DNA of 64,000 nt, from the NCBI RefSeq assembly GCF_004785955.1, contig NZ_SJER01000004.1, positions 186,001-250,000 of the forward strand. The letters are read 5' to 3'. Below the pieces are notes generated by a model. It made no database searches, was not told the origin of the DNA, and was given only the letters and a program-made list of their open reading frames with translations. This stretch comes from Halostella litorea. GTDB taxonomy: Archaea; Halobacteriota; Halobacteria; Halobacteriales; Natronoarchaeaceae. Both the position numbers and the translations under genes were made by a program. Below, one piece after another: positions 3,035 through 59,235 of this stretch (positions are counted from its first letter, which is position 1; each line of letters begins with the position of its first letter).

Positions 3035-3631
3035 TCACTCCCGCTCGGCCGGCGGGCGCTGGACCCGCTCGGCGACGGGCTTCTCCAGAGAAAGTTCCAT
3101 CTCCAGGTCCGAGCGCATCCGCTCGACCACCTCGAAGCCGACGTTCTCGTACACCGTGACGGCGCGGCGGTTCCCCTTGGAGACCTCCAGCGTGAGCGCC
3201 TCGTGGTCGCGGTCGTCGGCGTACGCGACGACCTGTTTCATCAGTTCGGTGCCGACGCCGCGGTCCTGGTAGTCCTGGTGGACGAACACCACGAACTTCG
3301 GGTCGGCCCGGTCGGCCGGAACGACAGCGACGTGGCCGACGACGCGGTCGCCGTCCAGCGCGACGAGATTCCAGCCGTTTTCCCGGAGGCGGTCGAGCCA
3401 CGACTCGATCTGGGGTACGGTCGCCGGCGGCAGCCCCATCGTCCGGCTGTACGAGTCGATGTCGTCGTACATGTCGACCGTCGCGCCGCGGTCCGACTCG
3501 CGGAACGGGCGGATGACGAGCGGGACCTCCTCGCGGTCGTAGAACCGCGGGCACCGCGGCGGACAGTACGGCGTCCCGCTACACTCCGAGTTGTCCCAGG
3601 CCGAGCAGGCCGCGTCGGAACGCCAACTCAT
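3035..3631 (-). CDS. GNAT N-acetyltransferase with cysteine-rich N-terminus
   Basis: A 198-residue protein. Residues ~38-185 form a GCN5-related acetyltransferase domain: the acetyl-CoA pyrophosphate loop is QDYQDRGVGTELMKQ, followed by LEVSKGNRRAVTVYENVGFE, the usual beta5-alpha4 region. Before the domain, residues 1-30 hold five cysteines (SDAACSAWDNSEC and YCPPRCPRF), a pattern that could bind a metal. The acceptor substrate is unknown. It is divergent from the UspA gene at 3736. Confidence 0.8.
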   Translation of the reverse strand: MSWRSDAACSAWDNSECSGTPYCPPRCPRFYDREEVPLVIRPFRESDRGATVDMYDDIDSYSRTMGLPPATVPQIESWLDRLRENGWNLVALDGDRVVGHVAVVPADRADPKFVVFVHQDYQDRGVGTELMKQVVAYADDRDHEALTLEVSKGNRRAVTVYENVGFEVVERMRSDLEMELSLEKPVAERVQRPPAERE

Positions 3632-46429: not shown

Positions 46430-48211
46430 TCAGGGCCGCACCGTCGGGTCCGAGCTGACGACGTCCCACTCCGAGGGCTCGATCACGTTGCCGTCGAACG
46501 CGTCGTGTTCGGGGTAGGCGGTGAACACGAGGAACTCGGCCCTGTCGTCGAGGTACTCCACCAGCGTCGAGAGGTTCCCCTCGGTGAGGCCGCCGAGCTG
46601 GTCGAGCAGCATGATGGGCACGTTCTGGGCCACCTCGAACGCCTCGTGGCCGGCCAGCGCGGCGACGATGCCGAGCAGTTCGAGTTCGCCCTCCGACAGC
46701 GCGTCGACGCTGGCCTCGCGGCCGTCGCGGGCGACGACCAGGTCGAAGTTGCTGGTCAGCCGCGCCGTCTCGAAGCTGGTGTCGAACCGCGCGAGCAGGT
46801 CGTCGATCGCGTCGTCGAACGCCTCGCGGGTCCGGCGTTTCAGCTCCGCCTTCCGGTTGCGCAGCGCCGCGATCTCCTCCCCGAGGTCGTCGTGTTCCGC
46901 CTCCAGCGTGTCCCGGCGGTCGGCCAGGCCCTCGATCTCCGAGAGCTCCTCGCGCTTCTCCTCGAGTTCGGCCTCCGCCCGCTTGATCTCGCTTTTGATC
47001 TCGGTGAGGTCGTCGCTGTGCTCCGCGACCGCCGCCTCGAGGTCGTCGATGCGGTCGTCGAGCTCCGCCTTCCGCTCCCGGGCCGAATCGAGGCTCTCGG
47101 CCCGGTCCCCGCGCTTCGCCTCAAGGTCGTCGACGCGGCGCTCCAGGTCGTCGCGGCGCTTCCTGGCCTCCCGGATCTCCTCGCGGCGGCTCTCCAGTTC
47201 CGCGACGCGGTCGTCGTACTCCGCGCGCTCGGCTTTGAGCTCCGAGATCCGGTCGCTGAGCTCGTCGAGGCGGTCGCGGACCGTCCCCTCGTCGGTCGAC
47301 TCGCCGCAGAGCCAGCAGTCGACCTCGTCGCCCATGATCCCCCGGTCCAGGTCGGTGAGCAGCTCCACGCGCCCCTCCTCCAGCACGCGGCGGTTGGCCG
47401 AGTACACCGACTGGAGCAGGTCGACGTCGGTCCGGATCGACTCCCGGCGGTCCCGGACCTCGGCGAGTTCGGCGCTCACGTCCTCGTCGGGGACCGTCAG
47501 GGCCTCGTACTCCTCGCGGACCTCCGCCAGCTTATCGTCGATGCGCTCGACGGCGTCGGACAGCCGGTCGACGCGCTGTTCGGTCTGGCTCCGTTCGGCG
47601 CGCAGGCGGCTCAGCTCCTCGCGGTCGTCGTTCTCGGCCGTCGCGTCCGGTTCGGCGAGGTCGGCGCGTTCGGCCTCCAGCTCCTCGAGTTCGTCGGTCA
47701 GCCGCGTCACGTCCTCCTGGACGCCCGGCAGGCGTCGCGCCGCGTCGCGGGCCTCCTCCAGTTCTGCCTCGACGCTCGACCGCTCGGCTTTCAGGTCGGC
47801 GATCCGCTCCTCGATGTTCTCGAAGTCGAGCGGGCGCGTCAGCAGTTCCTCCAGGTTCTCGCCGCGGCGGACGGCGTCGCGGACGGCGTTGTCCTCGTCG
47901 AGGAAGGCGTACAGGTCGGCCCGGATGCGGTCGTACTCGTCGTCGAGAAACACCTCCCCCTCGCTCACGACGGTGCCGTTCCGCCGCGTCAGTTCGACGG
48001 CGTACGACCCGTCGGGCGCGTCGAGTTGAACCCGGCCGGCGTCGGCCCCCTCAGTGAGCGGCGTTCTGGTGCCCATCGCCGTCTCGATGGCCTGGAGGAA
48101 GCTCGATTTTCCCTGCCAGTTCGCGGCGCGCACGACGTTGTTCCCCGGGTGTATCGTCGCGTGCCCCTCGCGAATGCCGGCGATGTTCTCCGCAGTGAGG
48201 TTCCACGTCAT
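46430..48211 (-). CDS. Archaeal SMC-related ATPase (Rad50-like, zinc hook)
   Basis: A 593-residue SMC-like protein. The N-terminal ATPase half has a variant P-loop NWQGKSS (31-37). Two long coiled-coil arms (~130-290 and ~310-480) meet at a central CWLC (Cys299, Cys302), like the Rad50 zinc hook. The C-terminal half has the signature-type ALSEGELELLGIVAAL and Walker B PIMLLDQLGG, where the usual Glu after Asp is Gln. It fits the group annotated as archaea-specific SMC-related proteins. It is divergent from the RdfA gene, an association I recall from Haloferax. Confidence 0.88.
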   Translation of the reverse strand: MTWNLTAENIAGIREGHATIHPGNNVVRAANWQGKSSFLQAIETAMGTRTPLTEGADAGRVQLDAPDGSYAVELTRRNGTVVSEGEVFLDDEYDRIRADLYAFLDEDNAVRDAVRRGENLEELLTRPLDFENIEERIADLKAERSSVEAELEEARDAARRLPGVQEDVTRLTDELEELEAERADLAEPDATAENDDREELSRLRAERSQTEQRVDRLSDAVERIDDKLAEVREEYEALTVPDEDVSAELAEVRDRRESIRTDVDLLQSVYSANRRVLEEGRVELLTDLDRGIMGDEVDCWLCGESTDEGTVRDRLDELSDRISELKAERAEYDDRVAELESRREEIREARKRRDDLERRVDDLEAKRGDRAESLDSARERKAELDDRIDDLEAAVAEHSDDLTEIKSEIKRAEAELEEKREELSEIEGLADRRDTLEAEHDDLGEEIAALRNRKAELKRRTREAFDDAIDDLLARFDTSFETARLTSNFDLVVARDGREASVDALSEGELELLGIVAALAGHEAFEVAQNVPIMLLDQLGGLTEGNLSTLVEYLDDRAEFLVFTAYPEHDAFDGNVIEPSEWDVVSSDPTVRP

Positions 48212-53880: not shown

Positions 53881-55362
53881 ATGACAGAACCCGAAGCGGA
53901 CGCCGCGACCACGGTCCGCGTGACCGTCGGCAGCCGCGGCGGCGGCGACGTGGCGCGGGCGGCGAGGGAGGCCGCGCCCGACGGCGTCGCCGTGCGGACG
54001 GTCGGGCCGACGGGGCTGACGTGGCAGGAACCGATCCTCGCGGCGACGCGGGACGGCCGAACCGCCGCCTACGGCCGGGTGACGCCCTCGGGCGCGAAGG
54101 GGCTGGTCGACGCCCTCGCGGACGGCCTGCTGGAACCGCCCGCGTTCGCCCTCGCGGACGCTCCAGCCGATGAACGCTCGTTCCCGACTCCCGACGACGG
54201 GCCGCTCGGCGTCGGCGAGCGACGCGTGCTCGACGCCTGTGGCTGGGTCGACCCCACCGACGGGTCGCCGGTCGGGACCACGGACCCGGCCGAACTGGAA
54301 GCGGTCGCCCGGCGGTCGGGGTTTCGAGGCCGCGGACAGGCCGATGACGGCGACGGCCCCGTAGCGGCGGTCTGGGACGCCGTCCGCGAGGCGGAGGGTA
54401 ATCCGGCGGAAGGTGATTCCGCGGACGATGATCCGGCGGAGGGTAACCCGGTCGTGGTCGTCGACGGAACCGGCGGCGACCCGGACGCCGACGCGGACCG
54501 GTTGCTGCTCGAATCCGACCCGGCCGCGGTCGTCGACGCCGCGGTGGCCGTCGCGGACCTCGTCGACGCGTCCGAAGTGGTGGTCGCGGTGGACGAGGAA
54601 AATCGTCTCGCACGCGAGCGTGTCGAAGCCGTCGCCGCCGACGCTCCGGGCAGTGCCGCGGCGGTGACGGTGCGCGGGGCGGAGGCGGCCCCGGCGTACG
54701 ACGACCGACCTGCCGTGGTCCACACCCCGCGGACGCTGGCGGGGGTCCGCGCGCTCGCCGGCGACGCCTCCCCGGGCGACGACGCGGCCGATTCCGCGGA
54801 CGGCGCGGCCGACTGGCCCGGTGCCGACCACGACCCCGGCACCCGGCTGGTGACGGTGTGTGGCGACGCCGACCGGGCGACCGTCGAACTCCCGACCGAC
54901 GCGTCCCTATCCGCCGCTCTCGAAGCGGTTGAGGATCCCGGGTTCCAGTTCGCGTGCGTGGGCGGCCGCCTCGGCGGCCTGACCCGCTCGCTCGACGTTG
55001 CCGCGGACGCCGACGCGTTGGTGGCGGCCGGGTTAGGCACGAACGGCGTGGTCGAACTGTTCGACGAGACCCGGTGCCCGGTGGCGGCCGCCGGCAAGCG
55101 CATCCGCTACGCACGGGAACACGGGTGCGGCCGGTGCGAGGGCTGTCGGGAGACGGTCCCGGAACTCCACGAACGGCTCCGAGCGGTGTACGCCGGGGAG
55201 TTCGACCCAACGGAGTTGCGGCGAATCTGTAGCGAACTCGGGGACGGGGACTGCGCGGTGGCGGCCGCCGCCGCTCGCCCCGTCCGAACGGCGGTGGACG
55301 GGTTCGAGGCTGCGTTCCGAAGCCACGCCGACGGGGAGTGCCCGACCGGAGAGTGTAACTGA
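53881..55362 (+). CDS. Degenerate NuoF-like (51-kDa) protein with 4Fe-4S motif
   Basis: A 493-residue protein that follows the NADH-dehydrogenase 51-kDa subunit order. The SLBB-like part is around residues 330-370, and the C-terminal cluster motif CGRCEGC (~413-420) has a further Cys in DGDCAVAAA. The NADH/FMN glycine-rich loop, normally SGLRGRGGAGFPTG, reads SGFRGRGQADDGDG, and an Asp/Ala/Pro-rich insert follows, so nucleotide binding may be lost. No NuoE or NuoG partner is adjacent. It may be an electron-transfer or scaffold remnant. Confidence 0.75.
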   Translation: MTEPEADAATTVRVTVGSRGGGDVARAAREAAPDGVAVRTVGPTGLTWQEPILAATRDGRTAAYGRVTPSGAKGLVDALADGLLEPPAFALADAPADERSFPTPDDGPLGVGERRVLDACGWVDPTDGSPVGTTDPAELEAVARRSGFRGRGQADDGDGPVAAVWDAVREAEGNPAEGDSADDDPAEGNPVVVVDGTGGDPDADADRLLLESDPAAVVDAAVAVADLVDASEVVVAVDEENRLARERVEAVAADAPGSAAAVTVRGAEAAPAYDDRPAVVHTPRTLAGVRALAGDASPGDDAADSADGAADWPGADHDPGTRLVTVCGDADRATVELPTDASLSAALEAVEDPGFQFACVGGRLGGLTRSLDVAADADALVAAGLGTNGVVELFDETRCPVAAAGKRIRYAREHGCGRCEGCRETVPELHERLRAVYAGEFDPTELRRICSELGDGDCAVAAAAARPVRTAVDGFEAAFRSHADGECPTGECN

Positions 55363-56526: not shown

Positions 56527-56616
56527 GGTGTCGCCATCACCCGACCGTCACAAGTCAGTTATGGGTCCTTGCCCCTCGTTATCGCGGCTGAGGTCCGTCC
56601 TCCGGTGGACACACCT

Positions 56617-57079
56617 CTATCGATTTGTTGTGGCGGGGGCCGGCCGGCGACCACACCGCTATCGATTTGTAATTGCGAATATCGACCGCTCTCACGTCTC
56701 TATCGATTTGTTTCGGCCCTCTCCTGTGGTGGTTTCACACTTCTATCGATTTGTTTCGAGCGGGGAACGGCGTCCCCCGCCTCTATCGATTTGTTAGGTC
56801 CGTCGGGCAGTCACGCGGGTGGGATCGGGCGGTACCACACCGCTATCGATTTGTTTCGGTGGTCATTTCCGCAATACGTTCGAGAGTGTGGGGAGTTAAG
56901 AATTCGAGTGAGGCGGGCCCGGTTGACAATACAGGCGGGACTGCGAACACCGTTCAGGCGGTAACGCGAACACCACCGAGTCGTCGCTGCCCGGCCCGGA
57001 GCGGCGACGGAGACGGCTCTATCGATTTGTTCGGTCGACCGGCGCGTCTACGGGTGTGACACCCCTCTATCGATTTGTT
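56617..57079 (+). repeat. Origin iteron array, left side (eight copies)
   Basis: Units of CTATCGATTTGTT start at 56617, 56659 (last base A), 56700, 56743, 56783, 56843, 57019 and 57067, all in the same direction. The first six are about 40-60 bases apart. Several are preceded by CACAC or CACC and followed by TCGG. They fill the 573-base gap between the LD-carboxypeptidase and orc1/cdc6 genes. They are most likely binding sites for the initiator encoded next door. Confidence 0.88.
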
Positions 57080-57099
57080 CGGCCGGCGGGGAAGCGGGC

Positions 57100-58416
57100 C
57101 TATTCCCGCAGTTGTGCGTTCACGACAGAGCGGAGTTCGTCCTCGTGGATGTCGTCGAGCCGGGAGTCCTCGCGGAGCGTCTCGATGATCGTCGCCGGGT
57201 CCTCGCCGAACGTGAACTCGAGGTAGCTGCCGGAGTTCGGGCCCTGGCTCTTCCGCTCGGACTCGACCAGCGAGTACGTCGTCAGCTCCTTCATCTTGTT
57301 GACGTACGTCTCCTGGTAGTACTGCTCCGCGTCCAGCGCCTGCGTGAGGTACTGGTACACCGTGTACCCGTGGGGGCTCTTGGCGGCGTTGTTGCCAGTC
57401 TCGGCCGCGACGGCGGCCGTCGCGTACAGGCAGAGCTTCTTCTGCGTCGAAATCCCACGCGTCACCTCCAGCACGCGGTTCTTCTCGACTTTGTCCTGAG
57501 CGCTGCGGACGTGTTCCTCCTGAACCTGCGGGGACCCCGCGCGCTCGGCGATCGACCCCGCTGTCCGGACGAGGTCGATGGCCTTCCGGGCGTCGCCGTG
57601 CGTCTGTGCGGCGAAGGCCGAGGCGAGGGGCAACACGTCGTCGGAGAGCGCGTCGTCGTGGAACGCGTCGCGCCGGTGTTCGAGTATCTCCCGGAGCTGG
57701 TTGGCGTCGTAGTCGTCGAAGTGGACGTCCTCGGGCGTGAACGAACTCAGCGCGCGGGACCCGACGTCCTCCATCATCTTCGTGTCGTTGGAGATCGCCG
57801 CCACCGATATCTTGGCCGTTATCTCGTCGGTGCTGCCCGCGCGGGAGAGCTGATAGAGCAGCCGCGAGAACGCCGGCTCATCCTTGTCCCGACGGCCGAC
57901 GAGCATGTCGAGTTCGTCGAGGACGAAGACGGCGATGTCGTAGTGCTCGTTGACGAGGCGGTAGAGCTCGTTCCACTTCTTCTTCGTCGGGATGCCGTGT
58001 TCGGGAACCTCGACGCTCACCCCCGCGTCGTCGGCGACTTTCCGCGCCAGTTCGTACACCGCGGACCCCAGGGTACCGACGTTCTGACAGTTCATCTGGA
58101 AGACGCCGAAGTTCGTCTCGCGGTTCTCCGTGAGTTCGACGATGTTCCCGCAGACGGCGTTGATTATCAGCGACTTGCCGGTTCCGGAGGGACCGTAGAG
58201 AAACAGGTTCGGCGGCCGCTCGCCGCTTATCGCGACCCGGAGGTGACGGGTGATCTCCGACAACTGTTCGTCCCGACCGACGATCCGGTCCTCGTCGACG
58301 ATCTTCGTCGGGTCCAGAAGCGTCCGGTCGCGGATGAGCGTCGCCGTCTCCTCCTGCTCCAGGATCATGTCCTTTATCGACCCTGCGTCCCTGGAGTCGT
58401 CGCCGGGGTCAGACAT
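57100..58416 (-). CDS. orc1/cdc6: Orc1/Cdc6 replication initiator
   Basis: A 438-residue archaeal origin-recognition protein. Residues ~45-300 are the AAA+ part with Walker A GPSGTGKS (75-82) and Walker B VFVLDELDML; the C-terminal winged helix includes TVYQYLTQALDAEQYYQETYVNKMKELTTYSLVESE. It binds origin repeats and loads the MCM helicase. I start it at MSDPGDDSRD (58416): a TATA-like TTTTTTA lies 27 nt upstream. An iteron at 58454 sits directly upstream of that box, suggesting self-regulation. Confidence 0.95.
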   Translation of the reverse strand: MSDPGDDSRDAGSIKDMILEQEETATLIRDRTLLDPTKIVDEDRIVGRDEQLSEITRHLRVAISGERPPNLFLYGPSGTGKSLIINAVCGNIVELTENRETNFGVFQMNCQNVGTLGSAVYELARKVADDAGVSVEVPEHGIPTKKKWNELYRLVNEHYDIAVFVLDELDMLVGRRDKDEPAFSRLLYQLSRAGSTDEITAKISVAAISNDTKMMEDVGSRALSSFTPEDVHFDDYDANQLREILEHRRDAFHDDALSDDVLPLASAFAAQTHGDARKAIDLVRTAGSIAERAGSPQVQEEHVRSAQDKVEKNRVLEVTRGISTQKKLCLYATAAVAAETGNNAAKSPHGYTVYQYLTQALDAEQYYQETYVNKMKELTTYSLVESERKSQGPNSGSYLEFTFGEDPATIIETLREDSRLDDIHEDELRSVVNAQLRE

Positions 58417-58439
58417 ACCGATCCCATCCGATTCCCCAG

Positions 58440-58466
58440 TAAAAAAGGTTCCCCTATCGATTTGAT
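58440..58466 (-). promoter_or_regulatory. orc1/cdc6 promoter with embedded iteron
   Basis: TTTTTTA on the minus strand (58440-58446) is centred 27 nt before the ATG at 58416. A variant iteron CTATCGATTTGAT (58454-58466) lies a few bases upstream, in the place of the TFB-recognition element. Initiator bound here could control its own gene. Confidence 0.6.
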
Positions 58467-58653
58467 TTACATCGAAATAGCCGTTCTCGGTGGGGAATAC
58501 GGCCGGAGCAAGTTCGTCCGTCGAAACCCCCGACGATTTGTTTCGTCCACGTCGATGACCCACCCGGATCGTTAGCAGTCGTGTCGATTGCGGATAGCGT
58601 CTCACAACTGACGGACGGGGTGAGAACTGATACACGGTGAATGGACGGAGTCA

Positions 58654-58680
58654 ACACACACACACCTCTATCGATTTGTT
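58654..58680 (+). repeat. 27-bp inverted repeat of the origin, left arm
   Basis: A run of ACACACACACACC followed by TCTATCGATTTGTT. The reverse complement of 59054-59080 is identical over all 27 bases. The arm contains a complete iteron (58668-58680). Confidence 0.9.
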
Positions 58681-58774
58681 TCGTGGGGAAGGGTGGGGGA
58701 GGGGGTTAGACAGGGTCGTCAACGGGCCGGCAAATGGAAACCTCGTCTGTCGAGGTCGGACTAGCGGGTTCTTG

Positions 58775-58860
58775 GCTACACTACATCTTATATGTCTATT
58801 ATCTTATTTCTTCTCACTACTTACTAGACTAGAAGTAGATCTAGAAGACTAGAACGATAC
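58775..58860. other. AT-rich candidate DNA-unwinding element
   Basis: About 86 bases, strikingly AT-rich against the GC-rich genome, with short CTAGAA repeats at 58829, 58841 and 58849. It lies between forward and reverse iterons, directly before the iteron at 58867. It is the likely site of strand opening. Confidence 0.75.
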
Positions 58861-58866
58861 ACCCCG

Positions 58867-58879
58867 ATATCGATTTGTT
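58867..58879 (+). repeat. Origin iteron at the edge of the unwinding element
   Basis: ATATCGATTTGTT, one base different from the consensus at its first place, directly after the AT-rich stretch and followed by CG. Confidence 0.8.
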
Positions 58880-59053
58880 CGATCCGGATGCCTGCTACGC
58901 TTTTTCTCTCCACACGAGTACTTAAACCCGGGGTCGATCAACAGGCTGGACTCAGTGTTCATACGGCAACGTTTGATAAATCCCACAGTTTCCAACTACT
59001 TTCGTTCCCCATACCTGCTATGCACAACATACCCACCCCCACTACACCACCCG

Positions 59054-59080
59054 AACAAATCGATAGAGGTGTGTGTGTGT
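59054..59080 (-). repeat. 27-bp inverted repeat of the origin, right arm
   Basis: Exact reverse complement of 58654-58680, about 370 bases away. The iteron occupies 59054-59066, and the GT run follows. Confidence 0.9.
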
Positions 59081-59116
59081 CCGACCGACCCCGTCACTGC
59101 CTCGAACAGCCCTTCG

Positions 59117-59129
59117 AACAAATCGATAG
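59117..59129 (-). repeat. Origin iteron, second reverse copy
   Basis: AACAAATCGATAG on the plus strand, 63 bases after the first reverse copy and followed by AGGGGTGTG, matching the CACCCCT flank of the copy at 57067. Confidence 0.85.
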
Positions 59130-59235
59130 AGGGGTGTGAGGGAAGTGAAGGCCGAGTGAGAAGTGCGATCCGAGAGGCGTTTGGGGGAAACGGGAACGCG
59201 GCTGGAGGGTTCCACTCCGACGCTCCCACCCGTTC

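Follow-up and report, generated by a model that had tools for sequence, protein, structure and literature searches.

Does a short repeat that surrounds an orc1/cdc6 initiator gene in Halostella litorea mark a replication origin, and what would keep the initiator on its own repeats? The gene lies in the window, as the whole 64,000-nt stretch of DNA analysed is called here (positions 186,001-250,000 of contig NZ_SJER01000004.1, assembly GCF_004785955.1). A sequence-only reading of the window had reported thirteen copies of a 13-base unit, eight to the left of the gene and three forward and two reverse to its right, and all 13 turned out to be exactly where it had placed them, as copies of the core TATCGATTTG. 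Allowing one mismatch added no further copies in the window (0.38 are expected, and 13 were reached in 0 of 100 shuffles), and 13 of the 15 TATCGATTTG copies in the whole 3.75-Mb genome are at the orc locus. The repeats had also been said to enter the gene, which is not the case: the coding sequence holds no TATCGATTTG copy, and the closest core starts 39 nt upstream of the start codon. The length of the unit needed correction as well, since its core is present in all 13 copies but the 13-mer CTATCGATTTGTT is exact in only 10 of them, and the element conserved among relatives spans ~24 bp, gAACAAATCGATAGrGGTGnGtG, comprising the core and a G-rich tail that the 13-base unit does not reach. The reading had also passed over one more, diverged copy, AACAAATCGTCGGGGG at 58527-58542. 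A single full element of this kind was found on contig C7 of genome G000 (~54660-54676; L172), ~1.5 kb downstream of an unrelated Orc paralogue; it is the only other copy with a G-rich tail found in the genome.

An alignment of 207 exact copies, drawn from the window and 29 related loci (30 in all, hereafter the A-family), shows that conservation extends beyond the core, and aligning 252 copies with a variable triplet left free gave gAACAAATCGATAG[g/a]GGTGnGtGt. The A-family element is asymmetric, with the core followed by the G-rich tail as in haloarchaeal origin recognition boxes (ORBs), and the long G-run is reduced to a G-N alternation. Over 254 copies, the mean length of the longest tail G-run is 3.26, with runs of 5 or more in 6 copies, while the text of Wu 2012 (PMC3528665) describes haloarchaeal ORBs with a long G-string. 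In a group of initiators at 55% identity, which uses the repeat tTTACACaTCGATGACGGGGGG, the mean is 5.78 (79 copies), and an orc paralogue at 48% identity in the same genome as the window has five copies of TTACAACTCGAAAAnGGGGGG. Four repeats can be aligned by eye, column by column, and those of two related initiators retain the long G-run; the A-type unit is therefore read as an ORB whose long G-run has been reduced. The view that the unit is not a classical ORB thus holds as far as the missing long terminal G-run goes, but the tail is still G-rich and the layout is that of an ORB, with inverted copies beside orc1/cdc6.

The initiator matches TIGR02928 (E 1e-120) and the Pfam families Cdc6_C and Cdc6_lid, and exceeds 300 aa with both AAA+ and winged-helix domains. 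Its nearest solved chains by sequence, 2v1u_A and 2qby_A, were also its top structural matches, both being DNA-bound Orc1 chains (2qby_A: Z 18.4, rmsd 9.5, 329 aligned; 2v1u_A: Z 18.4, rmsd 9.2, 347 aligned). The AlphaFold model has a mean pLDDT of 58.5 with a poor AAA+ part, reaches 70-92 by block over residues 321-438 (lowest at 391-400), and was used solely for the secondary structure of the wing. One tRNA gene was detected on the 384-kb contig, which is therefore probably an extrachromosomal replicon. An archaea-specific SMC-related protein (NF045487) is encoded at 46430-48211 of the window, ~8.4 kb from the first ORB, and the plasmid pHH400 has one too. The features of the locus are collected in the table.

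Table. Features of the orc1/cdc6 locus in window coordinates.
Feature	Coordinates	Strand	Remarks
Downstream spacer	56527..57102	.	8 same-direction ORBs; proposed array for titrating the initiator; precedent oriC2D, from the oriC2D passages of PMC3936714
ORB core, downstream array	56618..56627	-	
ORB core, downstream array	56660..56669	-	
ORB core, downstream array	56701..56710	-	
ORB core, downstream array	56744..56753	-	
ORB core, downstream array	56784..56793	-	
ORB core, downstream array	56844..56853	-	
ORB core, downstream array	57020..57029	-	
ORB core, downstream array	57068..57077	-	
orc1/cdc6 initiator gene	57103..58416	-	438 aa, with AAA+ domain, Cdc6 lid and a winged helix at the C-terminus
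Upstream spacer, proposed origin proper	58417..59235	.	5 exact ORB cores, one diverged ORB, AT-rich tract
Promoter-proximal ORB running into TATA-like TTTTTTACT	58440..58464	-	core 58455-58464; proposed autoregulatory operator
Diverged conserved ORB AACAAATCGTCGGGGG	58527..58542	-	family form AACAAATCGTCGGAGG; matched by pattern in 29/30 A-family loci, window included
ORB core	58669..58678	-	full element with (GT)n tail ~58654-58680
AT-rich tract, candidate unwinding element	58775..58860	.	72% AT over 60 bp, centre ~58818
ORB core, upstream spacer	58868..58877	-	
ORB core, opposite orientation, upstream spacer	59056..59065	+	
ORB core, opposite orientation, upstream spacer	59119..59128	+	

Cognate repeats thus occupy both flanking spacers and are partly inverted: in the upstream spacer three cores point in one direction and two in the other, with their G-tails outward. 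Aligning the upstream spacers of 17 loci revealed two diverged ORBs, namely AACAAATCGTCGGAGG and the promoter-proximal ORB, which runs into a TTTTA box. The AT-rich tract sits between two same-direction ORBs here, and the gap that holds it varies among relatives. Two ORBs with (GT)n G-tails form a 27-nt perfect inverted repeat (58654-58680 and 59054-59080). Insertions of ~1-1.5 kb in the origin region, judged by ORB spacing, were seen in the upstream spacer of one relative (L046) and in the downstream spacer of another (L038).

The repeat goes with one clade of initiators. Among 80 loci fetched by tblastn for relatives of the Orc, at least three repeat copies were found in 29, which have the closest Orcs (76-82% identity), and the remaining 51 (Orc 64-73%) had one copy at most. 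In a survey of 391 genomes of the class, 38 have an Orc at 75% identity or more (two with an internal stop), and all 38 carry the pattern ACAAATCGATAGNGGNG, as do 20 of the 353 that lack such an Orc; a reversed-pattern control gave 1 match in the 391 genomes. As the pattern is spread over 58 of the 391 genomes and 29 of 86 genera, the comparison of genomes indicates that the repeat is specific to an initiator family across genera and not to one replicon; it had been proposed to be both initiator-specific and replicon-specific, and only the former survives. Twelve of the 20 genomes that carry the pattern without a cognate Orc were read, and several look like remnants: two had broken pieces of an A-family Orc beside ORBs, three had downstream-type remnants, one had a six-copy array with 42-nt spacing and no Orc pieces, two belonged to an intermediate Orc group with mixed ORBs, one had an inverted pair, and three had a single pattern match.

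The locus is a real and conserved replicator-initiator unit, with the inverted array, the downstream array and the gene kept together across genera; archaeal origins adjacent to orc1/cdc6 genes are already known. Its parts would very likely work together as the unit of a probably extrachromosomal haloarchaeal replicon, with an origin in the upstream spacer, titration downstream, and autoregulation through an ORB next to the TATA-like box. Orc1 would bind ORBs of the ~24-bp type, and the inverted ORBs of the upstream spacer would form the origin, where bound Orc1 may open the AT-rich tract and load MCM. The eight-copy downstream array would sequester Orc1 from the origin and so limit initiation, and at the ORB that abuts the TATA-like box of its gene, Orc1 would damp its own synthesis.

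The activity of the origin was approached through GC skew. The maximum of the cumulative skew of the contig falls inside the locus (raw at window position 58775, detrended at 57966), and block permutation gave P 0.0015 for the amplitude and P 0.005 for the change point, although the change has a broad 95% region (188-266 kb) and the contig is possibly an incomplete replicon. The plasmid pHH400, whose oriP was mapped by marker frequency according to the oriP passages of PMC3936714, served as a comparison: its skew maximum lies at record position 3099, ~3 kb from the oriP region (~305 of 406 kb examined), with the same polarity and a similar size (mean skew 0.0086/-0.0057 in pHH400 vs 0.0077/-0.0057 in the contig), and its best change point is ~31 kb from oriP, with oriP inside the 95% region. 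In three complete plasmids (94, 119, and 135 kb) in which the A-family Orc is the only matched place, the skew extremum fell inside the ORBs in none (amplitude P 0.17, 0.04, and 0.09), and one of them has a skew minimum, i.e. the opposite polarity, ~1.3 kb from the nearest ORB. The skew of the contig, with its maximum inside the locus and its polarity as in pHH400, supports activity, and the locus is most likely a replication origin, as had been proposed.

The repeats may instead be operators of an Orc1 that acts as a transcription regulator, with the locus a dormant or decayed origin. The conservation of the promoter-proximal ORB fits this, and there are precedents, since Orc1-2 of Saccharolobus islandicus is described in the relevant part of PMC9738581 as a regulator that is not an initiator, and inactive origins are reported for haloarchaea in passages of PMC3936714. 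A regulator would leave unexplained why both arrays and the gene stay together across genera, why all good ORBs in the genome but one are at the orc locus, and why the skew maximum lies there, and this alternative is considered unlikely. The promoter-proximal ORB finds a place in the replicator-initiator unit too. Searches with patterns drawn up once the alignment had been inspected found the composite of ORB and TATA box (from the ORB to the T-run) in 27 of the 30 loci of the A-family and in 37 of the 51 of the sister and intermediate groups; four matches turned up elsewhere in the loci, over 1.67 Mb counted on single strands. In the 55%-identity group, no ORB of this kind was seen near the promoter. 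The conserved composite suggests that the ORB autoregulates the initiator gene, and it opens autoregulation by an archaeal plasmid initiator to direct testing.

The sequence-only reading had taken the whole 2.5 kb as one functional origin, which would include both spacers and have two initiation zones. Both sides of the gene do carry the same repeat, and the text of Wu 2012 (PMC3528665) places repeats in the spacers flanking orc/cdc6, in some haloarchaeal origins as ORBs on both sides, and links ORB sequence to Orc family. However, the downstream copies in the window all point in one direction, and a similar known layout argues differently: the oriC2-cdc6E/oriC2D system of Haloarcula hispanica likewise has its origin upstream and many ORBs in the spacer directly downstream of the initiator gene (11 in 722 bp vs 8 in 576 bp here), and in the passages of PMC3936714 on this system, the downstream cluster resisted deletion, lacked origin activity and had a negative effect, likely by titration, while every tested origin depended on its own cdc6 gene. 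Given this precedent, the downstream array more probably exerts negative control and has no origin activity itself, and by analogy with Haloarcula oriC2 it would titrate the initiator; a single origin of 2.5 kb is regarded as quite improbable. A parS-like partition site or another segregation element is hardly credible, as the repeat tracks the clade of the orc gene and the annotated ParA found on two of three plasmids read whole lies ~7 and 15 kb from it, even though the array is directional and five of its seven spacings are 40-48 nt. The spacings of 42, 41, 43, and 40 nt in the window look helically phased, and no claim is made for phasing, because the loci are related copies, the preferred phase is not the same in the two families (spacings under 75 nt between copies of one direction gather at 45-47 and 53-55 in the A-family and at 40-42 in the sister clade), and the strong 10.5-bp phase over all copies (R 0.52, n=79, and 0.49, n=52) weakens to R 0.22 and 0.32 over distinct spacings.

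The sister clade, which includes pL131 of Natronomonas pharaonis and pHLAC01 of Halorubrum lacusprofundi, resembles the A-family in its upstream layout, but its Orc is 64-73% identical to that of the window and its downstream array is usually reversed in direction. Its loci mostly use ACACATCGATAG or ACACTTCGATAG, the former one base off the A-type core, and that base is diagnostic: in the A-family it is A in 251 of 252 copies, T in one and C in none, in the sister clade it is C in 338 of 352 copies and A in 4, and in the intermediate group (5 loci, 27 copies) it is C in 24 and A in 3. A quick tree, with a long-branch warning and a weak root, puts the A-family on one branch (SH-aLRT 93) and the sister and intermediate loci on another (98), with the base changed once. 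Origins were predicted by Wu 2012 (PMC3528665) in 15 genomes, and as its text includes those with pL131 and pHLAC01, its figures or supplements may show the sister-clade ORBs; a search of its text did not find the A-type sequence. A literature text search with the A-type element, its complement and the sister core gave no haloarchaeal paper by title.

Both initiators reside together in at least five genomes, and there the two repeat types keep to their own initiators. Of the sister-type ORBs in these five genomes, 44 of 46 are at the sister Orc and 2 elsewhere, the A-type ORBs number 35, of which 33 sit at the A-type Orc and the other 2 on a different contig, and neither type was found at the locus of the other initiator. 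The two units even share a contig in one genome (G372), and the Halorubrum sp. CBA1229 plasmid NZ_CP054586 carries both unit types at coordinates nearly identical to those in G372.

A candidate reader of the diagnostic base was sought in the initiator. Between the A-family and the sister and intermediate loci, 29 of 430 alignment positions are fixed differently (at least 90% on each side), including 4 of 20 in the wing hairpin of the winged helix (P 0.038), 3 of 8 at the wing tip (P 0.012) and 0 of 14 in the recognition helix, with P values uncorrected and regions picked after a first look at the data. The differently fixed wing positions include 385, 391, 397, and 398, and the AlphaFold model has wing strands at 384-390 and 397-403. 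As the base changed in a single evolutionary event and the regions had been chosen after that earlier look, the alignment is suggestive only, and discrimination of A from C in the core by the wing would be a lead.

In bacterial iteron plasmids, the initiator binds repeats at the origin, an extra array serves copy control, and a variant site lies at the promoter of the initiator. The unit in the window would work like these plasmids, with Orc1/Cdc6 in place of their RepA-type initiator. It bears on how haloarchaeal cells with many Orc1/Cdc6 proteins confine each initiator to its own origin, in terms of residues and bases. A tentative answer, which I consider possible though not probable, is that the sister families, able to share a cell or a plasmid, are kept apart mainly by one core base pair (ACA-A-ATCGATAG vs ACA-C-[A/T]TCGATAG), which would be read by the wing tip (Q391/S397/Y398 vs H/M/F) with no fixed difference in the recognition helix, and that the ORB is used in three ways, as origin, downstream titration array and promoter operator. 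If true, this would amount to iteron-plasmid control in an archaeal form, based on a minimal incompatibility code. The value of the unit lies in its near-minimal difference from a co-resident sister system, which offers a natural experiment on how one initiator stays off the origins of another: the clades are ~70% identical with ORBs that differ mainly in one base, and the swap experiment comes down to one base and three residues.

Several isolated loci deserve mention. One genome without a cognate Orc has six ORBs at an exact 42-nt spacing (L165, 5238-5470), and the 10 kb read there hold no cognate Orc; this array could be a relic, or a cis-only site able to exploit the initiator of another replicon. 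In genome G178 (contig C2, 62339; L200), an Orc from the 55%-identity group has an A-type ORB ~640 nt upstream, possibly as part of a mixed origin. Viral spread of the unit was considered and no association is claimed, as the 28 stretches of IMG/VR contigs that match the ORB pattern do so once each, unlike the arrays at orc loci; four phage records have distant Orc relatives (24.8-25.5% identity). Lastly, on the Halorubrum ezzemoulense plasmid NZ_CP034941.1, the match to the A-family orc is split into two pieces, an IS1595 transposase is annotated at that place (209107-211484), and the same plasmid carries a sister-clade orc at 327202-328476, so that one origin was possibly replaced by another after fusion.
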